From assembly GCA_900498135.1 (NCBI GenBank), contig LR026961.1:4549211-4613210 (forward strand): 64,000 bases of DNA, given 5' to 3'. This document shows positions 9,718-17,448 of this stretch, piece after piece. Under the pieces are notes generated by a model, which did not search any database, was not told where the DNA came from, and worked only from the letters and a program-made list of their open reading frames with translations. The position numbers and the translations under genes were made by a program. Each line of letters begins with the position of its first letter. The stretch's first letter is position 1. Source of the stretch: an uncultured Desulfatiglans sp. (GTDB taxonomy: Bacteria > Desulfobacterota > DSM-4660 > Desulfatiglandales > Desulfatiglandaceae).

Positions 9718-10345
9718 CATGACCTCCGGCAAAGCCGGAGGCTTGAATTTGTGAACCGCTCAAAGCGGTAAATAAAATCGGGAGCCACCTGAAGGTGGCT
9801 ACTATTTGAACAAACCTAGCTGGTCGAGTTTTTTGTCGATTTCTTCGTGTCTTTTGATGTATTGCCGGATTACCTCTTCATCGTGACCGGCTGTAGAGAC
9901 GTAGTAGCCTCTTGCCCAAAAGTGAAGACCGGTAAAATTCTTCTGCTTTCCCATATATTGGTGAGCAACGTGAATTGCGCTTTTCCCCTTCAGATAACCG
10001 ACAATTTGGGAGACAGCATATTTTGGCGGAATTGATATCAGCATGTGGACATGGTCGCCTCGCAGATGTCCTTCATGGATTTTGCTCTCTTTGTGCGATG
10101 CCAATTCACGCAGCACGTCTCCCAAATATTTCCGTAACTCCCCGTAAAGAATCTTTTTTCGGTACTTCGGAATCCAAACCAGGTGATACTTGCAATCCCA
10201 TGCCGTATGGTTTAAGCTTTGAACGTTGTTCATCGAAAGCCTCCTTGAAAGTGATCTTTGACCGGTTCACAATCTTGGAGGCTTTCGTATATTCCCGGAA
10301 TTGTCAAACTTTGTGTGTCTCCCCGGCAAAGCCGGGGGTTTACTC
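9718..10345 (-). mobile_element. IS200/IS605 family element (tnpA only)
   Basis: A complete-looking IS200-type element of about 630 bp. It contains one Y1 transposase gene. Subterminal hairpins with the same core CCGGCAAAGCCGG occur at both ends: near 9722-9738 (CTCCGGCAAAGCCGGAG) and near 10320-10336 (CCCCGGCAAAGCCGGGG). These are the folded single-stranded ends recognised by TnpA in this family. Further small hairpins (9751-9768 and 9783-9800) lie downstream of tnpA. No target duplication is expected. Exact ends were not determined. Confidence 0.75.
9802..10233 (-). CDS. tnpA: IS200/IS605 Y1 transposase TnpA
   Basis: 143 residues, the usual full length. The HUH motif reads D-H-V-H-M-L-I-S-I-P (about residues 60-69) and the catalytic tyrosine is in V-I-R-Q-Y-I-K near residue 126. 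The N-terminal H-L-V-W-I-P-K-Y-R-K pattern is typical. It cuts and rejoins single-stranded DNA at the element ends. All key residues are present, so the enzyme may be active. A hairpin directly after the stop (9783-9800) can act as terminator. Confidence 0.93.
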   Translation of the reverse strand: MNNVQSLNHTAWDCKYHLVWIPKYRKKILYGELRKYLGDVLRELASHKESKIHEGHLRGDHVHMLISIPPKYAVSQIVGYLKGKSAIHVAHQYMGKQKNFTGLHFWARGYYVSTAGHDEEVIRQYIKRHEEIDKKLDQLGLFK

Positions 10346-11051: not shown

Positions 11052-11570
11052 ATGGCAGTGAGGTCTCTACCCGACGGACGCTGGATTGTATACTGGAACG
11101 AGCGCACCCCCGAAGGGAAAACCGAATACAAAAGGCTCTATTTTGGGCGTGGCCCCTCGGCGGAAGCCCGTGCGAGGCGCAAAAACGAAGAGATGGGGTT
11201 CCTCTCAAGACGCCCCGAGAAGGAACCCGAACACTCAGGGCCTCTCTTTTTCGAATTGTCCAAGGCTTATTCAGAAAGCAAGCCCTTCAACGACAATAGC
11301 CTAGAGCAGCTCAAGATCCGCCTCAGCGCGAACATTCTCCCATTTTTCGGCCATCTTCCCGTCTTGGAGATCACCGAAGCCACAGCCGACCAGTACGTCA
11401 AGAAGCGGATCGCCGACGGCGTGAAGTTTTCCACCATCGCCCGCGAATTGACCGACGTCAAGGCGATCCTGCCCTGGAGCGCCACCCGCAAAATCATTCC
11501 CCCCAACCCTCTGAAGGATTACAAAGTGAAGCTTTTCGCGGCTTCTATTGAGACGTCAAATACAAAGTAA
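11052..11570 (+). pseudogene. Phage-type tyrosine recombinase, catalytic domain missing
   Basis: 172 residues: an N-terminal arm-binding-like domain (D-G-R-W-I-V-Y-W-N-E-R-T-P-E-G-K) and the core-binding SAM-like domain (S-L-E-Q-L-K-I-R-L-S-A-N-I-L-P-F-F-G). The reading frame ends just after P-L-K-D-Y, before the catalytic R-H-R-Y domain. Intact integrases are 350-400 residues. The gene breaks into AT-rich DNA within a few bases of a possible cassette boundary at 11578. It is not of the IntI type. Confidence 0.8.
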
Positions 11571-11613
11571 TACAAACCTTATACGCCTCGAATCGTCAAA
11601 GAAATTTTGAATT

Positions 11614-11880
11614 ATGCCAAAATACAATGTGGTGTTTGAATCTGAAGAAGATATTTATGGGATTGTTCCCAAGACGCATGATTGGGTACAGTATAAAGGT
11701 ATATTGAAGGTAAAGAATGGCGGGAAATTTCCGGTGTCACTCGACATGACCTTCGTTCCGCCTCACCCATTTGCGTTTAATATGCCTGACACACATTCAA
11801 TTAAGGGGATCACGATTACGGACGTGTATGTCAAAGTTGTTATATTTTTTAGTAAATTTGGAATAGAATTCCGGAATTAA
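11614..11880 (+). CDS. Hypothetical protein of putative gene cassette A
   Basis: An 88-residue frame not recognised. AT-rich codon use differs from the GC-rich flanks. It looks beta-rich (G-I-L-K-V-K-N-G-G-K-F-P-V-S-L). The context is telling: a CTTATACGC sequence at 11578-11586 precedes it and an attC-like site follows 20 bases after the stop, with GCGTATAAC complementary to that upstream sequence. This is the layout of an integron cassette with one gene. No clear ribosome binding site. Confidence 0.45.
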   Translation: MPKYNVVFESEEDIYGIVPKTHDWVQYKGILKVKNGGKFPVSLDMTFVPPHPFAFNMPDTHSIKGITITDVYVKVVIFFSKFGIEFRN

Positions 11881-11899
11881 AACCAAGAAGGGAGGAAGC

Positions 11900-12032
11900 G
11901 TATAACAATGGGGACAACCAGACCGCCAACAACGACGTGGTCATTGCCTTCCACTGCTCCGAAGAAAGGCAAGGGCAACCGGTAAGATGATTACCTCGCA
12001 ATGTTGGCGGCAGCTTACCCCCCCCGTTCGGT
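11900..12032 (+). other. attC-like recombination site 1
   Basis: A long imperfect inverted repeat directly after the 88-residue gene. R''-like GTATAAC is at 11900-11906 and R'-like GTTCGGT at 12026-12032, joined by a stem whose inner part CCGCCAACA (11923-11931) pairs perfectly with TGTTGGCGG (12002-12010). A further hairpin TTGCCTT/AAGGCAA sits inside (11944-11972). One extra A in the 5' strand resembles the extrahelical base of attC sites. GTATAAC is complementary to TTATAC at the start of the same putative cassette (11579-11584). Consensus matches are imperfect. Confidence 0.45.
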
Positions 12033-12053
12033 ATAATAAATTTAGGAACTAAG

Positions 12054-12704
12054 ATGAAGACCCTATTTATCTGCTTAGCCAATTCAAAGAAATTTGGTGA
12101 AAGATGTGTCGCTGGAATAGAAGTAAAAAAAGTTGGTGAAGTGTATCAACCCGTTGAAAAAGAGGGGAAGCCAAAATGGTTGAGACCGATCTCAAAATAC
12201 CAACATGGTGCCGTTAGGGAGGATTTAGTTGGCTGGATTAGATTAATGGATATTATAGAGATAGATCTCGAGGAATTATGCCAGAACGGCTATCAATCTG
12301 AAAACGCAACTTTTAAACCAGAGTCGATAAAGAGAATCGGGAATATAATACTATCTGAAAAACATTTAGACAGACTCATTGATATAAAACAATATAACCT
12401 ATTTGGAAATAGAGGGAAAGCGGTATCAGAGGATGTAATTGATTCCGTTGACCATTCTCTAACATTAATAAAAGTCACTGATTTTCAAATAGGTGGAAAA
12501 GAATCTGCTGACCAACTCAGAATAGATTTTGAATTCAATAATAATCGTTACGATCTGCCCATTACTGACATTGATTTTATTCAAAAATACAGTAAGAATA
12601 CTAAATTGCTGGAAAATGCAAGGTGTCTTTATTTAGCAATATCACTTGGCATTTATCATAATGGATGGCACTCAAAATTAATTGCTGGTATACTATATTT
12701 TTGA
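12054..12704 (+). CDS. Dual OB domain (DuOB) protein of a DUF488 cassette
   Basis: 216 residues, AT-rich, similar to proteins annotated as dual-OB-domain, which commonly neighbour DUF488 genes. Visible: M-K-T-L-F-I-C-L-A-N-S-K-K at the start, W-L-R-P-I-S in the first third (a usual DuOB landmark), G-I-Y-H-N-G-W-H near the end. OB folds typically bind nucleic acid or oligosaccharide; the ligand here is unknown. The start at 12054 lies 22 bases after the attC-like core GTTCGGT. The stop is two bases before the next start, so the three genes form one unit. Confidence 0.6.
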   Translation: MKTLFICLANSKKFGERCVAGIEVKKVGEVYQPVEKEGKPKWLRPISKYQHGAVREDLVGWIRLMDIIEIDLEELCQNGYQSENATFKPESIKRIGNIILSEKHLDRLIDIKQYNLFGNRGKAVSEDVIDSVDHSLTLIKVTDFQIGGKESADQLRIDFEFNNNRYDLPITDIDFIQKYSKNTKLLENARCLYLAISLGIYHNGWHSKLIAGILYF

Positions 12705-12706
12705 TT

Positions 12707-13342
12707 ATGGAACAAAATAAAAAGACTATATACACGATTGGTTATGCAGCGCATACAATCGAATCATTTATCGCAGCTTTGGAGGAATTCACCATAACCG
12801 CAATAGCTGATGTTCGGTCGCAACCTTATAGCAAGTTTAAGCCCGAATTTAACAAAGAAAATTTAAAAAGGACTTTGATAGGTTACGGAATAGAATATGT
12901 TTTTCTTGGCGATAATATCGGAGCTAGAATTAAGGCTCCCGAATGTTACAAAAATGGACAGATTGATTATGAATTAATATCTAAGCACCCTTTGTTTCAG
13001 GAGGGTGTCGGTCGCCTACTAAAAGGAATGGAAAAATTTTCAATTGCACTAATGTGTGCGGAAAAAGACCCTATAAATTGTCATAGGACGATTTTAATCT
13101 GTAGACACCTTAAAAGATATCAACTTAACATTTGTCATATACTTGATGCTAATACCTTGGAGAGTCAATCAGAAATCGAATTACGTTTGATGAAATTATT
13201 CCATTTAGATCAACCTGATCTTTTTATGCAAGATTCTGAACGACTTGAAGAAGCCTATTCCCGACAAGAAGAAAAAATCGCTTATGTAGCAGAAAATGAG
13301 GAAGATTATACAGCTAATCATAAAGGATTTAACAATGAATAA
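12707..13342 (+). CDS. DUF488 family protein, copy 1
   Basis: 211 residues. It begins T-I-Y-T-I-G-Y-A-A-H-T-I-E-S-F, then I-A-D-V-R-S-Q-P-Y-S-K-F (family D-V-R-x-x-P-x-S), L-G-D-N-I-G-A-R, and the conserved C-A-E-K-D-P-I-N-C-H-R motif. All family signature residues are present, so it is probably functional. DUF488 biochemistry is unknown; the Cys/His motif suggests catalysis or metal binding. The start at 12707 fits the 2-base gap from the DuOB gene. A charged tail follows the domain. The end overlaps the next gene by 8 bases. Confidence 0.8.
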   Translation: MEQNKKTIYTIGYAAHTIESFIAALEEFTITAIADVRSQPYSKFKPEFNKENLKRTLIGYGIEYVFLGDNIGARIKAPECYKNGQIDYELISKHPLFQEGVGRLLKGMEKFSIALMCAEKDPINCHRTILICRHLKRYQLNICHILDANTLESQSEIELRLMKLFHLDQPDLFMQDSERLEEAYSRQEEKIAYVAENEEDYTANHKGFNNE

Positions 13343-13778
13343 TAACAAATTATTTACAATCGGATTCACTAAAAAGAATGCAGAAACATTTTTTGAAAAA
13401 CTTATAAAATCTGGTATAGAAAAATTGATCGATATTCGTTTGAATAACGTTTCCCAACTTGCAGGTTTTACAAAAAAAGATGATTTAATCTATTTTTTGA
13501 AAAAGATATGTAACTGCGACTACGTGCATAAACCACTTCTTGCCCCAACAAAAGAAATATTAGACGCTTATAAGAAAAAAGAAATAACTTGGCTAGAATA
13601 TGAAAATCGATTTAATGATTTATTAGTTTCGAGAAAAGCGCATACCTTTCTGAGTTCATCAGATCTACATATGGTATGTCTATTGTGCAGCGAACCGACA
13701 CCCGATAAATGCCATAGAAGGCTAGTTGCTGAGTTTTATAAAAATTACTTTAAAAACATTGAAGTAATACATATATGA
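13335..13778 (+). CDS. DUF488 family protein, copy 2
   Basis: 147 residues from M-N-N-N-K-L-F-T-I-G-F-T-K-K-N; start chosen for AAGGA upstream and because it removes a longer overlap. It has L-I-D-I-R-L-N (family D-V-R), W-L-E-Y-E-N-R-F-N-D-L-L, and L-C-S-E-P-T-P-D-K-C-H-R. It differs clearly from copy 1 (I-R-L-N-N in place of V-R-S-Q-P), so the two are diverged paralogues likely acting together. AT-rich codon use matches its two upstream neighbours. Nine bases after its stop begins a second attC-like site. Confidence 0.8.
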   Translation: MNNNKLFTIGFTKKNAETFFEKLIKSGIEKLIDIRLNNVSQLAGFTKKDDLIYFLKKICNCDYVHKPLLAPTKEILDAYKKKEITWLEYENRFNDLLVSRKAHTFLSSSDLHMVCLLCSEPTPDKCHRRLVAEFYKNYFKNIEVIHI

Positions 13779-13786
13779 TAATTGTT

Positions 13787-13846
13787 TCCGAACATTCGCT
13801 TTTAGTCGACGCTCATACCCCGCGCGGCTGAAGCAGAGCCCTAGGC
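13787..13846 (+). other. attC-like recombination site 2 (59-base-element length)
   Basis: A 60-bp site with the order of a classical attC. R''-like TCCGAAC (13787-13793), spacer ATTCG, L''-like strand GCTTTTAGTCG pairing with CGGCTGAAGC (bulged T, two G-U pairs), and R'-like CCTAGGC (13840-13846). CCGAAC is complementary to GTTCGG at the start of the same putative cassette (12026-12031), as cassette logic predicts. The R' box departs from GTTRRRY at the first two positions, so this site may be inactive now. Confidence 0.5.
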
Positions 13847-13890: not shown

Positions 13891-15906
13891 ATGATAGATA
13901 ACTTCAGAGGAAAAACCAATTTTATCTGGTCGGTAGCAGACTTGCTTCGGGGTCCCTATCGCCCAAATCAGTACAAGGATGTCATGCTGCCCATGACAGT
14001 GCTGCGTCGACTCGACTGCGTTTTGGAGCCGACCAAGGACATGGTGCTCGCCAAACAAGAATCGCTCTCCGGTGGGAAAGTCAAAAACGTCGACCTTATC
14101 CTCTGCCGCGTCACAGGGGTTCCTTTCTACAACACCAGCCGATATTCATTCGAGAAGCTCAAAGGCGATCCAAACAACATCGCCGCCAACCTTATCAGCT
14201 ATATCAAAAGCTTCTCAACTCGCGCCCGAGAGATCATCGAGAACTTCGGCTTCGAGGAGCACATCGGAAAGCTAGACAAAGCGGACCGGCTTTACCTGCT
14301 GGTCTCCCGATTTTGCGATATTGACCTGCATCCGCAGGAGGTCTCGAACCTCGAGATGGGCTACATTTTCGAGGAGCTTATCAGAAGGTTCAACGAGGCC
14401 TCGAACGAAGAGGCGGGCGACCATTTCACACCCCGTGAGGTGATCCGTCTGATGGTAAACCTGATTTTCATGCCTGACAGCGATGTGCTCACGACCAAAG
14501 GTATTGTCAAAACACTTTATGACCCCGCCTGTGGGACTGGAGGTATGCTGTCCGTTGCAGAGGATTATGTCCGGGAGCTGAATCCCGACGCCCGCCTGGA
14601 GGTCTTCGGTCAGGATTACAATGCCCAGGCCTACGCCATATGCGGGTCGGATATGATGATCAAGGGACAGGAGATCGAGCATATCGCCTATGGCGACAGC
14701 TTTACCGACGATCGTTTTCCCCGCCACAAATTCGATTACATGCTAGCCAATCCGCCCTTCGGCGTGGAGTGGAAACCCGAGGCTGACTTTATCAAGCGGG
14801 AGCATGACGAGCAGGGCTTCGGAGGCAGATTCGGGGCCGGTTTGCCGCGCATCAACGACGGGTCGCTTCTTTTCATGCAGCACATGATCAGCAAGATGAA
14901 GGACCCCAAGGAAGGCGGCACACGCCTGGCAATCGTCTTCAACAGATCACCGCTGTTCACCGGGGCAGCCGCATCGGGCGAGAGCGAAATTCGACGCTGG
15001 ATCATCGAAAACGACTGGCTGGAGGCCATCGTCGCGCTGCCTGACCAGTTCTTCTACAACACCGGCATCTACACCTACCTTTGGATCGTCACCAACCGGA
15101 AGGAGCCAAGCCGCAGGGGCAGGATTCAACTGGTGGACGGCACCAGCTTCTTCAAGAAGATGCGCAAGTCCCTCGGCAATAAGCGCCACGAAGTGTGCGA
15201 CGACCAGAGGGACGACATCACGCGGCGCTACGGCACGCTCAAGGAAGGCGAGCATATCCGCCTCTTCGATAACGAAGACTTCGGCTACTGCCGCATCACC
15301 GTCGAGCGTCCGCTTCGACTCAACTTTGCCGTGGACAAAGATCGCATCTCGCGGCTTGCCGAGACCAAGGCCTTCACAACCCTGGCCACCAGCAAGAAAC
15401 GCAAGGATACCAAGGCTGCCAAGGCAGAAATCGAAGCGGGCCAAAAGCTTCAAGAGGAAATTGTGGCTGCTCTTGATTCGCTCTCATCGCTCGGCATTGT
15501 CAAAGACCGAGATGAATTCTCAAAACACTTGAAGTCCGCCTTCAGAAAAGCCGGGATCAAGGTCCCCGGCGCGCTTTTAAATGCGATCCTCATGGCCTTG
15601 GCCGAGCGGGACGAAACGGCCAAAATCTGCACAGATGTCAAGGGCAACCCGGAACCTGATCCAGAGCTGCGCGACTACGAGAATGTACCGCTCAAGGAAG
15701 ACGTGGACGCGTACATTAAGCGCGAGGTGCTGCCGCACGTGCCCGATGCCTGGATTGACGAGTCTAAAACCAAAGTCGGCTACGAGATCAATTTCAATCG
15801 CTATTTTTACAAGTATACGCCGCCCAGACGGTTGGAGGAGATCGAAACCGACCTCAAGAAGATCGAGAAGGAAATCGCCGGCATGCTCGCGGAGGTGACG
15901 GAATGA
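13891..15906 (+). CDS. hsdM: Type I restriction-modification DNA methyltransferase subunit
   Basis: 671 residues. An N-terminal HsdM domain (S-V-A-D-L-L-R-G-P-Y) precedes the N6-adenine methylase domain with the SAM motif D-P-A-C-G-T-G-G-M (about residues 211-219) and catalytic N-P-P-F (about 287-290). The Y-I-F-E-E-L-I-R-R-F and F-T-P-R-E-V segments are typical. The C-terminal ~170 residues are a charged extension ending in a coiled-coil-like helix. It methylates adenine when paired with HsdS; no hsdS lies nearby. Overlaps rhuM by ATGA. GC-rich, unlike the cassette just upstream. Confidence 0.92.
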   Translation: MIDNFRGKTNFIWSVADLLRGPYRPNQYKDVMLPMTVLRRLDCVLEPTKDMVLAKQESLSGGKVKNVDLILCRVTGVPFYNTSRYSFEKLKGDPNNIAANLISYIKSFSTRAREIIENFGFEEHIGKLDKADRLYLLVSRFCDIDLHPQEVSNLEMGYIFEELIRRFNEASNEEAGDHFTPREVIRLMVNLIFMPDSDVLTTKGIVKTLYDPACGTGGMLSVAEDYVRELNPDARLEVFGQDYNAQAYAICGSDMMIKGQEIEHIAYGDSFTDDRFPRHKFDYMLANPPFGVEWKPEADFIKREHDEQGFGGRFGAGLPRINDGSLLFMQHMISKMKDPKEGGTRLAIVFNRSPLFTGAAASGESEIRRWIIENDWLEAIVALPDQFFYNTGIYTYLWIVTNRKEPSRRGRIQLVDGTSFFKKMRKSLGNKRHEVCDDQRDDITRRYGTLKEGEHIRLFDNEDFGYCRITVERPLRLNFAVDKDRISRLAETKAFTTLATSKKRKDTKAAKAEIEAGQKLQEEIVAALDSLSSLGIVKDRDEFSKHLKSAFRKAGIKVPGALLNAILMALAERDETAKICTDVKGNPEPDPELRDYENVPLKEDVDAYIKREVLPHVPDAWIDESKTKVGYEINFNRYFYKYTPPRRLEEIETDLKKIEKEIAGMLAEVTE

Positions 15907-16992
15907 GTGATAACCTGCCCGCTCCCGTTGATTCCAAGATACTGATATATCAATCCGATTCCGGGGAAACCCGCCTTGAGGTGCGGCTCCAGGATGAGTC
16001 CGTCTGGCTGACGCAAAAAATGATGGCGGAGTTGTTTCAAAAGGATATTCGCACGATCAATGAACATATCAAGAACGTCTATGAGGAAGGCGAGTTAGAG
16101 CCGGAATCAACTATCCGGAAATTCCGGATAGTTCAAACCGAGGGAAACAGACAGGTCGGTCGCCTGATGGATTTTTACAATCTCGATATGATCATCTCGG
16201 TGGGATATCGGGTAAAATCCGTTATCGCAACCCGCTTCCGCCAGTGGGCCACGGCACGGTTGCGCGAATACATTGTCAAAGGTTTCACCCTCGACGATGA
16301 GCGGCTTAAGGGCGGCAAGGGCCTGGTGGACTATTTCGATGAACTGCTGGCTCGCATCTGCGAGATTCGTGCCAGTGAGGCCCGGGTTTACCAGCGGATT
16401 CGCGAGATCTTCGCCTTGGCCCGTGACTACCGGGAGGGTGAGAAAGAAACGCAGGTCTTCTTTGCCACCATGCAGAACAAGATGCACTACGCCGCCACCG
16501 GCATGACGGCTGCCGAGATTGTCCGCAGGCGCGCCGACGCAGTCAAGGCCAACATGGGATTGACAACGTGGAAGGGCGGCCGGGTGCTGAAACGCGACGT
16601 GGGAACGGCCAAAAACTATCTGGACGCCAACGAAATCGATACGCTCAACCGGATTACAGTGATGTTCCTGGGATCAGGCGGAGTTCCGTGCCCAATGGCG
16701 GCGGGATATCCGCATGCAGGACTGGGAGGCGTTTCTCGACAAGTTCCTGTATGATACCGAGCTGCCCGTGCCGGCCAATGCCGGATCGGTCAGCCGCGAT
16801 GCGGCTCTTGAATGGGCGGACGGGCAATACGACGCCTTTGCCGCGCGGCGGCGTCTGGAAGCTGAATCCGAGGCCGAGACGCGGTACGTGGAAGACCTGC
16901 GAATCTCCGGCCGCGTCCTTGATCAAGAGCGTAAGAAGACGCCCCCGAAGCAACAGGAGGCAAAGGTAAAGAAGAAAGGGGGTAAGACATGA
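15903..16992 (+). pseudogene. rhuM: RhuM family protein with frameshift
   Basis: RhuM (virulence RhuM/Fic-DOC-associated) proteins are about 340 residues. The first frame gives Q-S-D-S-G-E-T-R-L-E-V-R-L, W-L-T-Q-K-M-M-A-E-L-F, then R-Q-W-A-T and the D-T-L-N-R-I-T-V-M-F-L block. One extra G at about 16670-16672 shifts the frame; the +1 frame continues D-Q-A-E-F-R-A-Q-W and M-Q-D-W-E-A-F-L-D-K-F to 16992. Dropping one G restores a full-length protein. RhuM genes are frequent companions of type I systems. A sequencing error cannot be excluded. Confidence 0.85.
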
Positions 16993-17373: not shown

Positions 17374-17448
17374 TGGTAGGCACGCGGGGATTTGAACCCC
17401 GGACCCCTACCGTGTCAGGGTAGTGCTCTCCCCCTGAGCTACGTGCCT
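17374..17448 (-). tRNA. tRNA-Val (anticodon GAC)
   Basis: 75 bases including an encoded CCA. Acceptor stem AGGCACG / CGTGCCT, anticodon stem CTACC / GGTAG around CTGACAC, and T-arm GGTTCAAAT are all present. It reads GUC/GUU codons. It borders a mosaic island with a truncated integrase, but no second copy of its 3' end was seen in the window. Confidence 0.95.

Follow-up and report, generated by a model that had tools for sequence, protein, structure and literature searches.

Whether the AT-rich genes at this locus are the cassettes of an integron, and if so what has become of the integrase, is the question addressed here. We analysed a stretch of 64,000 nucleotides from an uncultured Desulfatiglans sp., which we refer to as the window, and an earlier note on this DNA had proposed that it contains a cluster of integron cassettes lacking an integrase. 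In our view the array is likely, on the sequence evidence described below, to be an integron remnant without an integrase gene, made up of an attI remnant, a first cassette (cassette A) and a second cassette that carries a three-gene PDC-M45 operon. The features that we assign are collected in Table 1.

Table 1. Features of the array and its immediate flanks (window coordinates).
Feature	Position	Strand	Remarks
Truncated phage-type tyrosine recombinase	11052..11528	+	N-terminal and central domains only; ORF to 11570
attI remnant	11522..11567	+	Crossover G11567/T11568; 84–85% identity to two intI-adjacent attI
Cassette A	11568..12026	+	Limits: attI crossover on the left, M45 cassette 5' core (GTTCGGT) on the right
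88-aa ORF of cassette A	11614..11880	+	Orphan
Site A (probable attC of cassette A)	11900..12032	+	R'' GTATAAC 11900–11906; R' GTTCGGT 12026–12032
M45 cassette	12027..13840, right end approximate	+	5' core GTTCGGT; layout as in relatives
DuOB protein, PDC-M45A	12054..12704	+	PF22557 6e-40; PDLC04653 9e-30
DUF488 protein 1, PDC-M45B	12707..13342	+	PF04343 2e-21; PDLC04657 7e-76; CAEKDPINCHR motif
DUF488 protein 2, PDC-M45C	13335..13778	+	PF04343 3e-20; PDLC04658 5e-62
Site B	13787..13846	+	R'' TCCGAAC 13787–13793; R' without GTT
hsdM, type I restriction	13891..15906	+	Right flank, outside array

The attI remnant and its counterparts in the genome

The genes of the array differ in composition from both flanks, as had been noted before: the GC content is 0.33 for the trio and 0.38 for the cassette A ORF, compared with 0.58 and 0.55 for the flanking DNA. 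The left end of the array was located by searching the whole genome with an 85-base query spanning the start of cassette A. Besides the query itself, only two convincing matches were found (C1:484603–484652 and C1:466602–466648; 84–85% identity over about 50 bp), and both of these sit directly 5' of integron-integrase sequence. The 46 bp of the attI remnant gave a local alignment score of 60, compared with a null maximum of 28. The two intI loci have a 699 bp block in common (665 of the 699 positions are identical), which ends where the first cassette starts. The window keeps only the last 46 bp of this block and departs from it at the same base, AAAG/T, where the slash marks the crossover, so that all three attI copies diverge exactly at that point. 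It is this match, ending at AAAG/T, that leads us to group the attI remnant, cassette A and the M45 cassette as an integron remnant without intI. The core ACAAAG/T also resembles the published minimum of the class 1 delta-attI, delta-attI1, which is AAACAAAG/TTRRRY (PMC12901181).

The breakpoint common to the attI copies moves the left boundary of cassette A to 11568; the TTATAC that had been taken as its 5' core begins eleven bases further on, at 11579. The inverted relationship described for that core nevertheless holds at the corrected boundary, where GTAATAC complements the R'' box of site A at six of seven positions. Upstream of 11522 the sequence is that of a phage-type integrase which ends before its catalytic half. 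The fragment shares 46% identity with residues 20–183 of a 380-residue integrase (L171) and has a weak Pfam match to Phage_int_M; no C-terminal half of the integrase was found in the window.

No match to the integron-integrase model TIGR02249 was found at the locus, in agreement with the earlier note, which had reported no intI in the window and had suggested that one be sought elsewhere in the genome. The best genome matches are two loci near 485 and 467 kb, both of which are pseudogenes, and the genome, the record of which is estimated to be 98% complete with 3% contamination, yielded no intact intI. The first pseudogene (485005–485944) scores above the TIGR02249 cut-off and contains a frame change and an in-frame stop, and the second (467001–467300) is an N-terminal fragment. 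An assembly or sequencing error may lie behind the broken intI; two lesions are present, however. The integron at 485 kb (C1:484603–485945; L111:4603–5945) comprises attI and the intI pseudogene. Its first cassettes hold an uncharacterised 369-residue gene followed by a SIR2 and HerA pair, both of which match PADLOC defence models, and more attC are found at L111:12568, 13857 and 19338, across intI from these first cassettes. The locus at 467 kb (C1:466601–467299; L110:6601–7299) has a second attI and the 5' part of intI, is 95% identical to the 485 kb copy over 699 bp, and contains an intI reading frame that runs on for 363 residues into unrelated sequence. Integrons are present in 38 of 80 related genomes.

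The surroundings of the array raise the possibility that it arrived with a genomic island, through homologous or phage-type recombination that brought in the attI remnant and the old attC together, IntI having acted elsewhere. We consider this unlikely, although it is the strongest of the alternatives. A type I methylase gene, a RhuM gene, the truncated phage integrase and a tRNA-Val gene give the region an island-like setting, and the genome has no intI that we found to be functional. Against this, a search of the window for a direct repeat of the tRNA end found none, and arrival with an island would alter the place of insertion and not the nature of the element. Of the genes concerned, hsdM has a copy in the same genome at C1:1474019 which is 86% identical at the DNA level, with similarity that begins at the start codon and none upstream. 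The RhuM family gene (PDC-S05; window 15903–16992) is split at about 16714–16754 into two overlapping frames and is therefore probably a pseudogene. The tRNA-Val(gac) gene (window 17374–17448) closes the GC-poorer island on the right, and on the left an IS200-type transposase gene (Y1_Tnp; window 9802–10233, minus strand) lies upstream of the genes for the HTH protein and the integrase. No promoter was identified for the array, promoter-like matches across the region being at chance level, and an Rfam search of the window gave no matches.

The two cassettes and their recombination sites

The preferred reading, that of an integron remnant, also depends on the two sites that the earlier note had described as attC-like. 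Regular-expression scans of the window for a perfect attC returned chance hits only. The sites were judged by a home-made attC scorer and by two covariance models built in this analysis, R1 and R2, the E values of which are rough. The scorer was trained on 18–20 sites, among them one (L111:3383) in the wrong orientation. Aligning long and short attC together with MAFFT misaligned the L' boxes; R1 was for this reason made from short-loop sites only, eight in number and including the upstream site of L035. R2 was trained only on attC from arrays and plasmids, without M45 sites.

Site A is probably the attC of cassette A, as judged from its score and its fold. It is the top plus-strand match in the 64 kb when the scorer is trained on other attC (score 27.3). 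With the M45-adjacent attC left out of the training set the score is 25.8 and an unrelated hit on the minus strand reaches 26.5, which puts site A about level with the best hit that chance gives in 64 kb. Among 74 upstream flanks of M45 operons it ranks third, and the top four (L035, L031, the window and L034) are all members of the cassette-borne clade described below. The bottom strand of site A folds at z = −3.4. Neither R1 nor R2, both trained mainly on short-loop attC, reports the site. The 181 bp region of site A occurs only once in the genome and matches no plasmid, and a GC-rich frame within it, NNDVVIAFHCSEERQGQPVR, may alternatively be read as a coding remnant. The 88-residue ORF of cassette A has no Pfam or PADLOC match and no relative among the 80 related genomes.

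The R'' box of site B begins 8 nt past the stop codon of the trio. R1 ranks the site second in the window (9.4 bits, E = 8.2, or 0.33 over 2.6 kb) and R2 ranks it first (13.4 bits, E = 1.3), and both models place it where the earlier note had placed it; with E values of 1.3–8.2 over the window it is weak on its own. The R' position reads CCTAGGC, without the essential GTT, and the bottom strand folds no better than shuffled sequences (z = +0.7). Site B does align with the attC of the closest relative, L030, with a score of 42 compared with a best score of 30 among 2000 shuffles. In the M45 cassette the 5' core, GTTCGGT, pairs with the R'' TCCGAAC as had been claimed, at six of seven positions and not at all seven; for randomly chosen window positions, a 6/7 match lies no more than 20 nt away in 1.9% of cases. 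Comparison of these sequences indicates that site B is the decayed attC of the M45 cassette, a decayed copy of the L030 site.

The claim of two attC-like sites is partly confirmed, on different grounds for each, by a weak covariance-model match and homology to L030 for site B and by our own scorer and the predicted fold for site A. IntegronFinder by default looks for at least two attC (PMC12444791). A covariance-model check, which the earlier note had proposed, returns site B weakly and leaves site A unreported. Since one attC is decayed and the other probable, automated detection may miss this array.

It is also conceivable, and in our estimation very improbable, that a stray M45 cassette was placed by IntI at a secondary chromosomal site (attG) inside the phage integrase gene, attI being uninvolved. 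The integrase homology does stop within 40 bp of the junction, and lone cassettes at non-attC sites seem to be present among the relatives (L030 ends at G/ATGGC, and no upstream attC was found for L036). However, the 46 bp leading up to the junction match two intI-adjacent attI and end at the same base, and the trio is preceded by a probable attC.

The PDC-M45 operon and its relatives

The matches in Table 1 bear out the assignment of a DuOB gene followed by paired DUF488 genes. Since the three proteins match the PADLOC models M45A, M45B and M45C, the trio (12054–13778) is already known as a candidate defence operon. The earlier note had thought such a trio unusual; it is instead a widespread operon, found in Thermodesulfobacteriota, Cyanobacteria, Planctomycetota, Verrucomicrobiota and others. 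DuOB and DUF488-N3 were reportedly defined in an earlier paper. No experimental work on the antiphage activity of PDC-M45 was found in the literature searched. Relatives of M45B on plasmids share less than 46% identity with it, and none was found in viral contigs.

The model of the DuOB protein (pLDDT 87) resembles the tandem-OB DNA-binding domains of HIN-200 proteins (Foldseek E of about 1e-4, TM 0.38), as well as other tandem-OB nucleic-acid binders. In DUF488 protein 2 the CSE and CHR residues are invariant across 20 homologues. DUF488 may have a rhodanese/phosphatase-like fold; fold searches gave PTP-like chains at Z of about 7, mixed with tetrapyrrole methylases, with Foldseek E values above 0.02, and indicated no firm family.

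The same trio is seen beside attC in other genomes, as the cassette reading had anticipated. Sites resembling attC lie directly 3' of the trio in L030, L032, L034, L036 and L040, and in L037 there is one at a distance of 62 nt; upstream attC, belonging to preceding cassettes, were found in L031, L034 and L035. The R'' box GCCGAAC stands 7–8 nt past the stop codon in L032, L034 and L036, and in L031, L034 and L036 the 5' core GTTCGGC complements the 3' R'' GCCGAAC at all seven positions. In L030, the trio of which is 78% identical to that of the window, the attC comes right after the stop codon and is detected by R1 (38.4 bits, E = 6e-7) and by R2 (E = 2e-4). The upstream site of L035 has an E value of 4e-12 with R1, for which it was a training site, and of 9e-7 with R2, for which it was not. 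Seven of 83 M45 3' flanks score at least 22 as attC when the scorer is trained on other attC, compared with about 1–1.6% of random stretches.

In the M45B tree the window copy falls within a 14-member clade (support 100/98), ten rows of which are labelled as having attC; these labels were set by eye and not blind, and that of L033 is based only on an R''-like motif. With these labels, the attC character requires four changes on the tree, compared with 10.6 in shuffles, and none of 500 shuffles gave a value as low. The relatives taken together indicate, at the level of sequence, that PDC-M45 moves as an integron cassette in one lineage. The genome contains another complete M45 trio (C1:1683867–1684909; L112), which lies outside the cassette clade and with which no attC was found. 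In Microcystis aeruginosa an attC-like site of about 41 bp (L102:3902–3942; 20–22 bits with R1 and R2) follows an M45 operon with its genes in the order BCA.

That chance attC-like motifs merely surround an ordinary AT-rich defence operon is the least credible alternative, since the attI match and the attC of L030, to which may be added the equivalent position of the attC in relatives and their clustering in the clade, outweigh the failure of the covariance models to report site A and the E value of about 1–8 for site B alone. The cassette-borne relatives, the clade and the attI remnant together lead us to regard the earlier description of a cluster lacking an integrase as right, with the attI remnant now added to it.

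Proposed origin and significance

The following order of events, the recombination by a particular IntI and the function of M45 are inferred. An IntI of the family represented by the pseudogenes near 467 and 485 kb would have put the cassettes into attI at AAAG/T, using the folded bottom strand of attC. A later deletion or recombination would have removed intI together with most of attI, leaving what remained fused to the phage integrase fragment, and the right end of the array would have decayed afterwards. With intI and part of attI lost and the right end decayed, the array would be fixed in place unless an IntI acts on it from elsewhere. M45 itself would be an antiphage system in which recognition of nucleic acid is the task of DuOB, as a tandem-OB protein, and the chemistry falls to the DUF488 pair, whose Cys and CHR motifs are conserved.

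As a cassette array without an adjacent intI, the array resembles a CALIN, which lacks intI by definition, and differs in that it retains an attI remnant. It shares with delta-attI a partial attI with the crossover core kept beside a cassette; a delta-attI upstream of a cassette gene, as in the Tn1404 example, is described as non-excisable (PMC12901181). The attI remnant differs in belonging to another integron family and in being truncated by fusion to a phage integrase and not within an array. All three genes of the trio match PDC-M45, but most relatives of that operon have no attC that we found in their flanks, whereas the clade that includes the window copy is mainly cassette-borne.

Integrons, both chromosomal and mobile, are described as stores of antiphage systems by Darracq 2025, Getz 2025 and Kieffer 2025, as these are cited in passages of PMC12444791 and PMC12409362. 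The present genome is similar in that defence-type genes occur as cassettes, in the 485 kb array (SIR2, HerA) as well as here; it differs in bacterial lineage and in that a three-gene candidate operon, PDC-M45, is contained in one cassette. Because integron-borne defence systems were, according to those passages, already reported in 2025, we regard the array as a fresh example of a recognised phenomenon and not as a novel type of element.

We offer only tentatively the broader proposal that M45 may be a working antiphage system with a HIN-like tandem-OB sensor and a DUF488 enzyme pair, mobile through integrons as a three-gene cassette in one lineage, and that the integrons of Thermodesulfobacteriota and their neighbours may be a reservoir of multi-gene defence cassettes. 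The array provides a clear case of an integrase-less integron with a readable attI. It extends the known cargo of integrons by an entire candidate defence operon, beyond the usual Vibrio and clinical settings, and the M45 operon would appear to move as a single cassette in several lineages. The existence of a cassette-borne clade makes M45 an easy choice for functional tests.
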